A stretch of DNA of 35,661 nucleotides from an uncultured Bacilli bacterium. Its GTDB lineage: Bacteria > Bacillota_I > Bacilli_A > RF39 > UBA660. Under the pieces are notes generated by a model. The model made no database searches. It saw only the letters and a list, made by a program, of their open reading frames with translations, and had not been told where the DNA came from. Shown piece after piece: positions 278 to 32,645 of this stretch. Every line of letters begins with the position of its first letter. The stretch's first letter is position 1. The translations under genes were made by a program, and so were the position numbers. The DNA lies in NCBI GenBank assembly GCA_947632265.1, contig CANROP010000004.1, forward strand, positions 1-35,661, read 5' to 3'.

Positions 278-1969
278 TTATTTTTCAATTTTAAATATTA
301 CTTGATACATATTTGTTAAGTCATATTCTTCAACATCAATTTTAAATCCATAAGACTCTATTTTATCAGAACATTCTCTAATTAAATTTATCACTTCTAT
401 AAGACTCACTTTTGGAGTTACTGGTTGTGATTGCTCTGGCATTACTGGATCGTATTGTTTACTATAATCAGTAATGATTATTGGTTCTGGCATTTTTACT
501 GTTTCAGCAGATTCTTGTTGTTGAGGTATGCTAGAGTTAAAATTATTATCTGGGTGTTGGTATTCTGGGTGTTCAATTATTGGTTGAGTTTCTGGAACTG
601 TCATATTTGTTGGTTCTACATTTTGACTTACTACTGGTGTGTCAATTACTGATGGTTGTTCTACCATAGGTGTAAACCCAGGTGTACCAAAATCAAATGT
701 TTGTGTTGTTTGGTCTGGTACGATACTTGATGGTGTAGCTGGTGCTGCTGGCATTTCCATCGCTGGAATATCTAATGTAGGAGCTACTGCTGGCATATCA
801 GTGATAGGCATTTCTCCAAATGATGGAATTGTTTGTGGCCCTACATTTATTGCTGGCATATCATTTATTGGTTGAGTTTCTGGAACTGTCATATTTATTG
901 GTTCTACATTTTGACTTACTACTGGTGTGTCAATTACTGGTGGTTGTTCTACCACAGGTGTAAACCCAGGTGTACCAAAATCAAATGTCTGCGTTGGTTG
1001 GTCTGGTGCGATACTTGATGGTGCAGCAGGCATTTCTGGCATTTCCATCGTCGGAATATCTAATGTTGGGGCTGGTGCAGTACTACTAGATAAATCTATT
1101 TGTTGTGGTTGAGTAACTCCAGGTTGCACATTTGTATTATTCATATTTGGTTCAAATATATTAAAAAATTGTGGTTGTGGTTGTATTTGCTCTGGTATTG
1201 GTGTAACATCAATAGGTGTTGTTGGTTGAGTATTATTCATTCCTCCATTATATGGAGTTAATGTATCAAAAAATTGATTTGTATTTGGCATATTATTTTC
1301 CATATTTATTTTCTCCTCTTTTTCATTTTCATTATTATCAATTTTATCTAATGATTCGTTTAGATTCTTCATTTTATCTATTTCTTCATCTGTTCTTCTT
1401 ACAGTTAATCTTTCTTCTACTATTCTATTTAGCATTTCATTTTGTAATTTAAATGTTGGAAGTCTAAGTAGTGATCTAGCATGACGCTCTGAAATTTTAT
1501 TATCTAATAATGCTTCTTGAACTTCATCGGACAAATTCAAAAGCCTTATTTTGTTTGCTACTGCTGATTGACTTTTACCTAATTTTTTAGCTAAATTATC
1601 TTGTGTTATATAACCCATATCAAGAATTTTTTTATAAGATAAAGCTTCTTCAATAGGAGTCAAATTTTTTCTTTGAACATTTTCAATTAAAGCAATTTCT
1701 GCACTATCTCTATCATTTAAGTTTTTTATAACAACAGGGACTTTTTCTTTACCAGCAAGTATGCTCGCTTTATATCTTCTTTCTCCTGCAATTATTTCAT
1801 ACTTATTTCCAATAGTTCTAACAACTATTGGTTGTATAACACCATGCTCCTTAATTGAATCTGATAATTCTAAGATCTGTTCTTCGTCAAATTTTATTCT
1901 AGGTTGAAATCTATTTGGCAATATATCATTAACATCTACTTCCATTACCTTAATAGAATTATCATTCAT
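278..1969 (-). CDS. noc: Noc (ParB-family nucleoid occlusion protein) with long Pro/Gln-rich linker
   Basis: ParB/Noc N-domain (ILPNRFQPR, GERRYKA, ALIENVQR), Noc-like HTH (LGKSQSAVANKIRLLNL, ISERHARSLL), Noc-like C-terminus (YQVIFKIEK), adjacent to rsmG; strong RBS AGGAGGT upstream. Confidence 0.88.
   Translation of the reverse strand: MNDNSIKVMEVDVNDILPNRFQPRIKFDEEQILELSDSIKEHGVIQPIVVRTIGNKYEIIAGERRYKASILAGKEKVPVVIKNLNDRDSAEIALIENVQRKNLTPIEEALSYKKILDMGYITQDNLAKKLGKSQSAVANKIRLLNLSDEVQEALLDNKISERHARSLLRLPTFKLQNEMLNRIVEERLTVRRTDEEIDKMKNLNESLDKIDNNENEKEEKINMENNMPNTNQFFDTLTPYNGGMNNTQPTTPIDVTPIPEQIQPQPQFFNIFEPNMNNTNVQPGVTQPQQIDLSSSTAPAPTLDIPTMEMPEMPAAPSSIAPDQPTQTFDFGTPGFTPVVEQPPVIDTPVVSQNVEPINMTVPETQPINDMPAINVGPQTIPSFGEMPITDMPAVAPTLDIPAMEMPAAPATPSSIVPDQTTQTFDFGTPGFTPMVEQPSVIDTPVVSQNVEPTNMTVPETQPIIEHPEYQHPDNNFNSSIPQQQESAETVKMPEPIIITDYSKQYDPVMPEQSQPVTPKVSLIEVINLIRECSDKIESYGFKIDVEEYDLTNMYQVIFKIEK
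582..1080 (-). repeat. In-frame tandem duplication (288-bp period, about 96 aa) in the noc linker
   Basis: ggttgagtttctggaactgtcatattt... starts at 582 and again at 870; both encode TLDIP.MEMP..., QTFDFGTPGFTP.VEQP.VIDTPVVSQNVEP.NMTVPETQPI. Confidence 0.9.
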
Positions 1970-2091: not shown

Positions 2092-2793
2092 TTATAATGG
2101 TTTATTTTTAATTTCATTATATTTCCTGGGAAATATTTTTGGAGTCTTATCATTTTTTTTGATGCTAACTAAGCTTCTTGTACTTTCTTCTATAGGTAAT
2201 TTAAAATTAATAACATCGTCTACTTTGCAATATAATTTAGTTAATGCATTCTGATAATCTTTTTCATTATCTAAATTTCCTTTCATAGCTATAAAATGTT
2301 TATTTATTTTTACCATTGGAAGTGCAAGTTCTATTAAAATATTTAACTGTGCAACTGCACGTGCTGTAACTACATCAAATTTTTCTCTATTATCTCTAGC
2401 ATAATCTTCTATTCTTGAATGGATTGCAACTATGTCTTTAAGTTTTAATTCTTCTATAACATTATTTAAAAAATTTATTCTTTTATTTAATGAATCTATT
2501 AATACTACTTTTAAATTCGGATAAAATATTTTTAAAACTATTCCTGGAAATCCAGCACCTGTACCAATATCACATAAACTTTCTTCTTTATTTAAGTCTA
2601 TAATTTTTGATATTGTTAAGGAATCATAAAAATGTTTTAAATATACATCTTCTTTTTCTGTTATTGCTGTTAAATTTATTACCTTATTATATTCTATTAA
2701 CATTTCATAATATTTATTTAATTTATCTAATTTTTCTTCTGTTATTTCTATATTTAGGTTCTTTATTTCTTCTATAAATTTATTTTGATTCAT
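2092..2793 (-). CDS. rsmG: 16S rRNA (guanine-N7) methyltransferase
   Basis: DIGTGAGFPG motif, RsmG family, position next to mnmG. Confidence 0.95.
   Translation of the reverse strand: MNQNKFIEEIKNLNIEITEEKLDKLNKYYEMLIEYNKVINLTAITEKEDVYLKHFYDSLTISKIIDLNKEESLCDIGTGAGFPGIVLKIFYPNLKVVLIDSLNKRINFLNNVIEELKLKDIVAIHSRIEDYARDNREKFDVVTARAVAQLNILIELALPMVKINKHFIAMKGNLDNEKDYQNALTKLYCKVDDVINFKLPIEESTRSLVSIKKNDKTPKIFPRKYNEIKNKPL
2120..2135. promoter_or_regulatory. Near-consensus Noc-binding site (TATTTCCTGGGAAATA) inside rsmG
   Basis: One change from palindromic NBS TATTTCCCGGGAAATA. Confidence 0.6.
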
Positions 2794-9169: not shown

Positions 9170-9416
9170 TGTTGATAATTTTTATATTTAAATTGAAGTT
9201 ATCAACAAAATTATCCACTTATGAACATTTATATCATTTTGTTTATATATTAATGTTATTAAAGTTATGCACATTTTTGTTTATAACTTGATTATTTTCT
9301 TATTTTTAATGTTTTTTTATGTTCAAAAATAGTGTTTATAAAACTTTTTTATTTTTTGAACATTGTTTTATAAAATAAATAATGTTCATAACTTTTTTTT
9401 ATTTATTTTATGCACA
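9170..9416. promoter_or_regulatory. oriC: oriC DnaA-box cluster upstream of dnaA
   Basis: TTATCAACA (9170-9178 minus; 9199-9207 plus), TTATCCACT 9211-9219, TTATGAACA 9219-9227 and 9383-9391 (minus), TTATGCACA 9265-9273 and 9408-9416. Confidence 0.85.
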
Positions 9417-18462: not shown

Positions 18463-18488
18463 TTAATGTTTCACGTGAAACATTAACT
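18461..18488. promoter_or_regulatory. parS: parS site 1 in a perfect 28-bp palindrome
   Basis: AGTTAATGTTTCACGTGAAACATTAACT; core TGTTTCACGTGAAACA 18467-18482. Confidence 0.93.
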
Positions 18489-18522
18489 GAAAGATTACAA
18501 TGTTATGTTGTAGTCTTTTTTG
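18489..18522 (+). terminator. gyrA terminator
   Basis: AAGATTACAA-TGTTATG-TTGTAGTCTTTTTT. Confidence 0.75.
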
Positions 18523-18530
18523 TTAAGATT

Positions 18531-18560
18531 TTTCTAATGTTTCACGTGAAACATTAGAAA
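18531..18560. promoter_or_regulatory. parS: parS site 2 in a perfect 30-bp palindrome
   Basis: TTTCTAATGTTTCACGTGAAACATTAGAAA. Confidence 0.93.
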
Positions 18561-18649
18561 AATAATATACTGTATAAAGTTTAAAAACTTAATATATATT
18601 GAATTTGCTAATGGGAAATAAAATTTATTATATTGAAAATTAATATCAA

Positions 18650-18665
18650 TGTTTCACGTGAAACA
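18650..18665. promoter_or_regulatory. parS: parS site 3
   Basis: TGTTTCACGTGAAACA. Confidence 0.93.
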
Positions 18666-18719
18666 TGATAAATACAAAAAAATTTGATATTTTTTAATTA
18701 ATATAATATATTAGTAATG

Positions 18720-18800
18720 TGCAACATTTATATTTGAATCAGGTCAGAGTTGGAAGACAGCAGCCTTAAGAATCCCTAAATGTGTGCACTCTTTTTATAT
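18720..18800 (+). ncRNA. ffs: Signal recognition particle RNA (small 4.5S type)
   Basis: AATCAGGTC...GGAAGACAGCAGCCTTAAG domain IV-like segment; terminal stem ACATTTA/TAAATGT; upstream TTGATA-17-TATATT (18684-18712); next to tadA/dnaX as in Bacillus. Confidence 0.83.
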
Positions 18801-18815
18801 TATGATAAGAAACAA

Positions 18816-18952
18816 TGTTCCACGTGAAACATATAAAAATAATTAATAATAGTAATGTTCCACGTGAAACATATAAAAATAATTAATAATAGTAATGTTC
18901 CACGTGAAACATATAAAGATAATTAATAATAAGTAATGTTCCACGTGAAACA
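18816..18952. repeat. parS: Four parS iterons (sites 4-7) at 40/40/41-bp period
   Basis: TGTTCCACGTGAAACA at 18816, 18856, 18896, 18937; spacer (a)tataaaaataattaataatagtaa repeated. Confidence 0.93.
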
Positions 18953-24757: not shown

Positions 24758-25606
24758 ATGTCACAAAAAAGTTATAACAATACACCAACTTTATATTTAA
24801 TTCCAACACCTATAGGTAACATGGAAGATATAACCATTAGAGCTCTTAATATATTAAAATCAGTTGATGTAATATTTTGTGAAGACACTAGAGTAACAGT
24901 ACAATTATTAAAATATTATGATATAAATAAAAAATTAATATCAAGCCATGAATTTAATGAATCTAAAAATAAACAAAAATTAATTGAGTATTTAAGTAAT
25001 GGAAGTAATGTAGGTCTTGTTAGTGATAGGGGAACACCTATAATAAGTGATCCTGGTTATACACTATCAAGTTATGCTATAGAGTGTGGATATAACGTAG
25101 TAAGTTTGCCTGGAGCAACAGCCCTAATACCAGCTTTAACTTCATCTGGAATAAGTCCTATGCCATTTTACTACTATGGATTTTTAAACAGTAAAGATAG
25201 TGCTAGAAAAAAAGAATTAGAATATCTTAAAAATATAGATGCAACATTAATTATATATGAAGCACCTCATAGAATAAATAAAACTTTAAAAGATATGTGT
25301 AATATACTTGGAAATACTAGAAAAATTAGTATTTCCCGGGAAATATCTAAAAAGTATGAAGAAATATATAGAGGTACTATAGAAGAATTATTAAATGAAA
25401 ATAATGAATACAAAGGAGAACTTGTACTAGTTGTTGAAGGTAATAAAAAAGCAGTAGAATATAAAAATTTAACAGTTGAAGAGCACATCAATCTTTATAT
25501 AGAAGATGGGAAAAGTCCTATGGATGCGATTAAGTTAGTAGCAAAAGAACGTGGTATGAAAAAAAGTGAAGTTTATGATTTATATCACAATTTAGAAAAG
25601 AAGTGA
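24758..25606 (+). CDS. rsmI: 16S rRNA 2'-O-ribose methyltransferase RsmI
   Basis: YLIPTPIGNMEDITIRALNIL, FCEDTR, SDRGTPIISDPG. Confidence 0.96.
   Translation: MSQKSYNNTPTLYLIPTPIGNMEDITIRALNILKSVDVIFCEDTRVTVQLLKYYDINKKLISSHEFNESKNKQKLIEYLSNGSNVGLVSDRGTPIISDPGYTLSSYAIECGYNVVSLPGATALIPALTSSGISPMPFYYYGFLNSKDSARKKELEYLKNIDATLIIYEAPHRINKTLKDMCNILGNTRKISISREISKKYEEIYRGTIEELLNENNEYKGELVLVVEGNKKAVEYKNLTVEEHINLYIEDGKSPMDAIKLVAKERGMKKSEVYDLYHNLEKK
25330..25345. promoter_or_regulatory. Perfect palindromic Noc-binding site TATTTCCCGGGAAATA inside rsmI
   Basis: Exact match to recalled NBS consensus; strikingly GC-rich core in an AT-rich gene. Confidence 0.8.
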
Positions 25607-32114: not shown

Positions 32115-32645
32115 ATGAAAGCAACTGGAGTTATTAGAAGGATAGATGATTTAGGTAGAATTGTCATACCTAAAGAAATAAGAAAAAATTTAAGAATAAA
32201 AGAAGGAGATAATATAGAAATATTTGTACGTGATGAAGAGGTAATACTTAAAAAATATTCTATGATGAATAAAATAAATGATTTAGCTCAAGAACTTACA
32301 GATGCGATATATACATTTATGAAATATAGTATATTTATAACAGATACAGATTGTGTAGTAGCAGGTAGTGGTCCTTTAAAAAAAGAATATTTAGGTAAAA
32401 GTATTAGCGATTTTATTACCGATTCTATAAAAAGAAGAAATAAAATGATAGAAAGTCATTTTAAAGAATTAAAATTTGTAGGAGATGAGTCCATAACTTG
32501 TAGTTATGTTATGTCTACAATATTAGTAAATGGAGAAGCAACAGGCATGATATTAATAATAAGTGAGAATGAAAAATTAGGAGAAGCAGAAATGCAGATT
32601 GCAAGCATAGTATCATCATTTATGACAAAGTATCTTGAACAATAA
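32115..32645 (+). CDS. spoVT: SpoVT-like regulator (AbrB N-terminal domain plus GAF-like C-terminus)
   Basis: MKATGVIRRIDDLGRIVIPKEIRKNLRIKEGDNIEIF; 176 aa. Confidence 0.92.
   Translation: MKATGVIRRIDDLGRIVIPKEIRKNLRIKEGDNIEIFVRDEEVILKKYSMMNKINDLAQELTDAIYTFMKYSIFITDTDCVVAGSGPLKKEYLGKSISDFITDSIKRRNKMIESHFKELKFVGDESITCSYVMSTILVNGEATGMILIISENEKLGEAEMQIASIVSSFMTKYLEQ

Follow-up and report, generated by a model that had tools for sequence, protein, structure and literature searches.

Noc proteins with a long disordered linker, no N-terminal membrane-targeting helix and a predicted internal translation start in a family of uncultured gut Bacilli

The window, i.e., the whole stretch of DNA analysed here (35,661 nt), is one entire contig (G000:C4) of an uncultured Bacilli bacterium (GTDB lineage RF39; UBA660) whose 1.23-Mb genome is assembled in 101 contigs, and it holds the origin region. 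The noc gene is located at 278..1969 on the minus strand and encodes a protein of 563 aa. The gene order is presumably mnmE-mnmG-rsmG-noc, with dnaA-dnaN-recF-gyrB-gyrA on the other side (names taken from reading the translations), which places noc directly after rsmG (gidB), as is characteristic of Noc synteny. DnaA-box-like 9-mers were found at 9265, 9408, 9456, 10863, and 10908. The contig starts within a minus-strand gene (1-140) whose start resembles uvrB; the gene following noc is therefore read as uvrB-like and not as parA. The gene at 32115-32645 resembles spoVT in its translation, with an AbrB-type N-terminus, in agreement with the prediction that RF39 bacteria are possibly spore-forming (PMC10868615). 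The wider group of relatives includes Candidatus Onthousia.

The noc product begins MNDNSIKVMEVDVNDILPNRFQPR, and AGGAGGT lies directly 5' of the ATG, as the initial annotation had stated. The folded head of the clamp, made up of the CTP domain and the HTH that reads NBS (residues 8-200), is encoded by 1370..1948 (minus strand) and keeps the GERR and ENxQR motifs and the Q/K/R specificity residues; the HTH is of the Noc type (GKSQSAVANKIRLLN, ISERHAR). In the AlphaFold2 model residues 8-213, comprising the CTP domain and HTH, are folded, and a short alpha-beta-beta domain is found at the C-terminus. This predicted C-terminal dimerisation domain (CTD; residues ~519-563, 281..415 on the minus strand) was identified by a profile match of the ∼48 C-terminal residues to Bacillales Noc CTDs (hhalign probability 97.9%). 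The best NCBIfam model was TIGR04285 (nucleoid_noc), which matched residues 7-227 only at 286.2 bits; the curated cut-off of 315 was not reached, and the C-terminal part was left uncovered, because the linker separates the head from the CTD. The best PDB matches were the Noc structures 7ng0, 7nfu, and 7ol9.

The residues that specify NBS binding in Noc are Q173, one lysine at either 179 or 184, and R201 (PMC7383237). The corresponding residues in the window Noc are Q134, K140, and R162 (= Q173, K179, and R201), and across the family Q was found in 102/102, K179 in 100/102, and R201 in 101/101 Noc proteins. The alignment pairs R65 and N97 with the CTP residues R89 and N121 of B. subtilis Noc, and both positions are invariant in it. 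ParA and ParB are encoded separately, by a gene pair on another contig whose ParB has a Spo0J-type HTH (parB L004, C18:2946-3830), and seven parS sites are clustered within 485 bp of the window (18467-18952), between gyrA and the next gene. Three of these are perfect palindromes TGTTTCACGTGAAACA and four are TGTTCCACGTGAAACA; no further parS site closer than 2 mismatches was found in the rest of the genome. (In the relative G002, a similar parS cluster contains an NBS-like site.) The window Noc has neither the residues of a parS-reading HTH (R173, G201) nor an adjacent ParA. Judged by synteny, NBS-specificity and CTP residues, and the separate ParA/ParB, the 563-aa protein is a true Noc ortholog. 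Its initial annotation as Noc is thereby borne out, with the HTH, the CTD, and the structure matches pointing the same way.

In B. subtilis Noc, an N-terminal amphipathic helix targets the protein to the membrane. The window Noc lacks this membrane-targeting helix as well as the next one, helix alpha2. In the noc frame a stop codon is located 6 codons upstream of the ATG (NKRRYV-M); since this leaves room for only 6 residues, a B. subtilis-type helix cannot be encoded, which confirms the earlier remark that there is no room for it. A mis-called start concealing a longer N-terminus was rejected, because a stop lies a few codons upstream in the genus as well as in the window. The search for Noc covered 16 genomes of the genus and 145 of the family (144 genera), and the proteins were read from the recovered loci; judged from the results table, a Noc-grade match was missing from about 10 of the 145. 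In all family Noc proteins read, the start lies just ahead of strand one of the folded domain; none of them (>130 genera) has an FSRLFG-type helix. The family frames, including those with longer open stretches upstream, likewise showed no FSRLFG-like motif. Relatives with a longer, helix-bearing N-terminus, which the initial annotation had said would count against it, were thus not found within the family. Bacillales Noc N-termini are MKxxFSRLFG-like, and several outgroup families of the class keep helix-like N-termini (VFNIFSRDD, MALFNRKD, MGLFDFLG). As far as the recovered loci tell, helix loss and a long linker are family-wide traits and not local to the window, and the membrane-targeting helix appears to have been lost across this whole family of uncultured gut Bacilli. 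Noc-like proteins of Thermoanaerobacterium (L139, L142) lack a long linker as well as the N-terminal helix; loss of the helix, or failure to gain it, may therefore have occurred in other lineages too.

Between head and CTD lies a disordered, acidic P/Q/T/N-rich linker (416..1330, minus strand; residues ~214-518), delimited by AlphaFold2 confidence and composition. The initial annotation had correctly described a long P/Q/T/N-rich linker between HTH and CTD, although its estimate of ∼250 residues has to be raised to ∼305 aa. Model confidence was <50 over most of residues 214-518. The window linker is net acidic (8 K+R vs. 43 D+E). The length from ERHAR to the end of the protein is 166-596 aa in family Noc (complete frames) vs. 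∼99-112 aa in most Bacillales. Two 218-nt (73-aa) repeat copies were found in the window linker: copy A at 861..1078 (residues ~298-370) and copy B at 573..790 (residues ~394-466), both on the minus strand. They are 91% identical in nucleotide sequence, a match far above chance, and are spaced 288 nt (96 aa) from start to start with ∼70 nt of unrelated sequence between them. What had been taken for an in-frame 96-aa tandem duplication is indeed an in-frame repeat, but one of 73 aa in direct orientation with a period of 96 aa; Tandem Repeats Finder called no array here. Linker repeats in relatives of the genus have periods of 14, 34, 40, 50, or 63 aa, or are absent. Because relatives carry different repeats or none, the duplication is best explained by ordinary low-complexity turnover, and as a species-specific repeat it was rejected as the key feature.

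The initial annotation had proposed that membrane or divisome contact was either moved to the linker or lost. The best amphipathic D-factor among the eight genus linkers computed was 0.39, compared with 0.81-1.15 for Bacillales Noc N-termini by the same formula, and no Noc-helix-like amphipathic segment was found in these eight linkers. (The start was mis-set in a few fragments, L017 in one computation and L060 and L098 in the amphipathicity computation; the internal-ATG tests described below are frame-based and unaffected.) Membrane contact through the linker was rejected on this basis, the linkers being acidic and without an amphipathic segment. The better fit is loss of the contact: NBS are no longer distributed over the whole chromosome either, as they are in nucleoid occlusion (see below). 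It is possible that the linker may contact a protein partner. In the genus, a strongly conserved block PEPIIVTDYSKQYDPVMP adjoins the CTD, and FDIF/LFSFG motifs are present as well. This block was rejected as a family-wide motif, since it is restricted to the genus and its near neighbours and other genera have different motifs. In L305 (G207) and L318 (G218), both from one outgroup family, a long acidic tail follows the CTD, and L305 keeps a short N-terminus of the helix type. This is a separate architecture and another way of lengthening Noc.

Two NBS were found in the window genome at ≤2 mismatches. The first, TATTTCCTGGGAAATA (1 mismatch; 2120..2135), lies within the 3' end of rsmG, ∼150 bp upstream of noc, and the second, TATTTCCCGGGAAATA (perfect; 25330..25345), lies beyond dnaA, on its other side. 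NBS are therefore present in the genome, and a spread over the chromosome except the terminus was not seen. The strict NBS pattern gave 353 sites in the 145 family genomes, with a median of 2 per genome and none in 17, and the reversed pattern used as a control gave 0 sites in any of them. NBS may be missed because MAGs are incomplete. Among the genomes listed, the distance between NBS and noc was ≤∼27 kb wherever both were on one contig. On long contigs all NBS were close to noc/dnaA. In G108, all four NBS cluster around dnaA in the vicinity of noc, no more than ∼20 kb apart on a 1.04-Mb contig. In contrast, 11-19 scattered NBS were counted in complete outgroup genomes that carry a helix-type Noc; for G190, G201, G212, and G223 the figures are 12-19 (≤1 mismatch), distributed over 2.4-3.0 Mb, compared with 1-4 sites for the reversed pattern. 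Of 162 noc genes, 28 have an NBS in the ∼300 bp preceding them, vs. 0 for the reversed control. NBS were missing from 6/10 genomes without a Noc-grade match vs. 11/135 with one (p = 1.7e-4). Where the location could be checked, the NBS appear to have collapsed from a chromosome-wide set to a few sites near oriC. G037 (1.3 Mb, noc in L263) is an exception with 22 strict NBS against the family median of 2, possibly a reversion to many sites or a multiplied element.

A predicted internal translation start was found at the HTH/linker junction (1301..1319, minus strand). The SD-like sequence AGAGGAG (1319-1313) precedes the ATG of Met223 (1303-1301), and the product would be a 341-aa short form consisting of linker and CTD. 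Met223 is invariant in the genus alignment, and an SD-like sequence precedes it in all 12 genus genes scored (12/12), despite differing residues (KEEKIN, EKGEID, KEENN, ERGEFI). To score internal starts across the family, in-frame ATGs at residues 40-100 after ERHAR were required to have an anti-SD duplex energy of dG ≤ -8. Strong internal SD+ATG pairs were detected in 22/55 near-clade and 15/108 far-clade genes, vs. 1.4 and 1.5 for shuffled codons, and fell to chance level in the next 60 residues after the tested region. Compared with the rest of these genes, the mRNA is less folded around the internal ATGs, to which local A+T may contribute. With a spacing of 4-11 nt from SD to in-frame ATG and an excess over both chance and synonymous nulls, the SD+ATG at the junction predicts a separate linker+CTD short form. 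All p-values for the internal start are optimistic, since the genes share ancestry. In the literature searched, no internal start in ParB/Noc was found, nor anything relevant on disordered linkers in ParB clamps.

Taken together, the origin-only NBS map and the internal start are the stronger findings; the duplication is incidental. Neither of the two had been noted in the initial annotation, nor had the family-wide extent of the helix loss and long linker. Our main reading, to which we assign a probability of roughly 0.6, is that Noc in this family, once a membrane-tethering nucleoid-occlusion factor, became a CTP clamp that acts locally at the origin and has very long, flexible arms; its cellular role is what we infer from the sequence features above. 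Classical nucleoid occlusion by family Noc is probably reduced or lost. Noc would load at the NBS flanking oriC, close on CTP, and slide locally. As the arms (linkers) would form the sides of the closed ring, its lumen would be far wider than that of an ordinary ParB or Noc, and bulky nucleoprotein at the origin could be passed over or enclosed. The internal start would yield an arm+CTD short form that pairs with full-length Noc via the CTD; one-headed dimers of this kind could not close the N-terminal gate and would therefore tune clamp number or arm density. Such a clamp would most likely serve to organise the origin or, like S. aureus Noc, to control the initiation of replication. The wide lumen and the heterodimers are steps of inference only. 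More tentatively, and at rather less than even odds, a single gene might produce full-length Noc, loaded at the origin, alongside an arm+CTD subunit initiated independently, and the mixing of the two would set the number of closed wide-lumen clamps around oriC. This would be an internal-translation control of a ParB-type clamp, evolved after membrane-tethered occlusion had been lost family-wide.

The main rival to this reading is a role of the linker in division through a protein partner: Noc would still act in nucleoid occlusion, with the linker contacting a divisome or membrane protein, and binding at the origin region would suffice in a 1.2-Mb, presumably small-celled bacterium without MinC. 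Another spatial regulator would indeed be needed, as MinC was not found in the family; it was not found either in the class outgroups, which keep helix-type Noc with scattered sites, and its absence is therefore not family-specific. The genus block and the FDIF/LFSFG motifs could be docking peptides, and the need for a divisome partner as well has been argued from work on S. aureus Noc (PMC5540599). However, the block is not shared beyond the genus and its near neighbours, and origin-only sites would leave most of the nucleoid unprotected. We consider continued occlusion unlikely. It is far less probable still that the window protein is a second ParB, an origin-binding partition protein standing in the noc position by chance. 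A few sites near oriC are a ParB-like distribution, but the sites are NBS and not parS, the specificity residues are Noc-type, the following gene reads like uvrB instead of parA, and a standard ParA-ParB with a seven-parS cluster is encoded separately; the candidate was rejected.

The internal SD+ATG, for its part, could be a by-product and not a start: it could arise by chance from the K/E/G-rich charged codons of the junction, act as a pause in translation between the domains, or be a gene-fusion relic. Amino-acid composition accounts for about half of the strong sites: with synonymous codons drawn from each gene's own codon use, 10.6 sites (sd 1.5, maximum 14 in 60 runs) were expected in the near clade vs. 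the 22 observed. The excess over this null is weaker in the far clade, many genera of which are without a strong internal SD. Yet the signal is on in-frame and not on out-of-frame ATGs (34/138 vs. 5/200; 19/188 vs. 1/326), at start-like spacing, with shuffles and neighbouring regions at chance. GAG makes up only 13% of Glu codons, and the DEEI motif is written GAG-GAG in 9/17 genes in which Met follows vs. 0/30 in which it does not (p = 1.8e-5). A relic would not persist at different positions in different genera. A by-product is accordingly somewhat unlikely, and we retain the origin-local clamp with a predicted short form as the preferred reading.

If the origin-local clamp is correct, a large lineage of gut bacteria has a Noc uncoupled from the membrane. 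This would be a natural case of separation of function, in which to ask what Noc binding at the origin region does without occlusion; the unexplained control of replication by S. aureus Noc is an example of a question on which it bears. It would also provide a ParB-family clamp with a far larger ring lumen, in which a second translation start determines the make-up of subunits.

Noc of Bacillus subtilis and Geobacillus is a membrane-bound CTP clamp (PMC8429893). The window Noc shares with it the rsmG synteny, the CTP-binding motifs, the NBS-reading HTH, and the CTD, and differs in the missing N-terminal amphipathic helix and alpha2, in a linker of ∼300 aa vs. a few tens, in NBS placed only near oriC, and in the predicted internal start. 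S. aureus Noc binds close to the origin and controls replication (PMC5540599). The origin-proximal NBS placement and a possible link to replication initiation are alike here, whereas the window genome has ∼2 sites and a Noc without the helix. ParB/Spo0J of the same genome has the clamp fold, the ParB_N/HTH domains, and sites clustered near oriC in common with Noc; unlike Noc, it reads parS, has a ParA partner and no linker, and carries residues ahead of the folded domain. The N-terminal proteoforms of bacteria (PMC11005335) likewise arise from an in-frame internal start giving an N-terminally truncated product, as predicted here. In contrast to these, the internal start of noc would separate a dimer domain from the clamp head.
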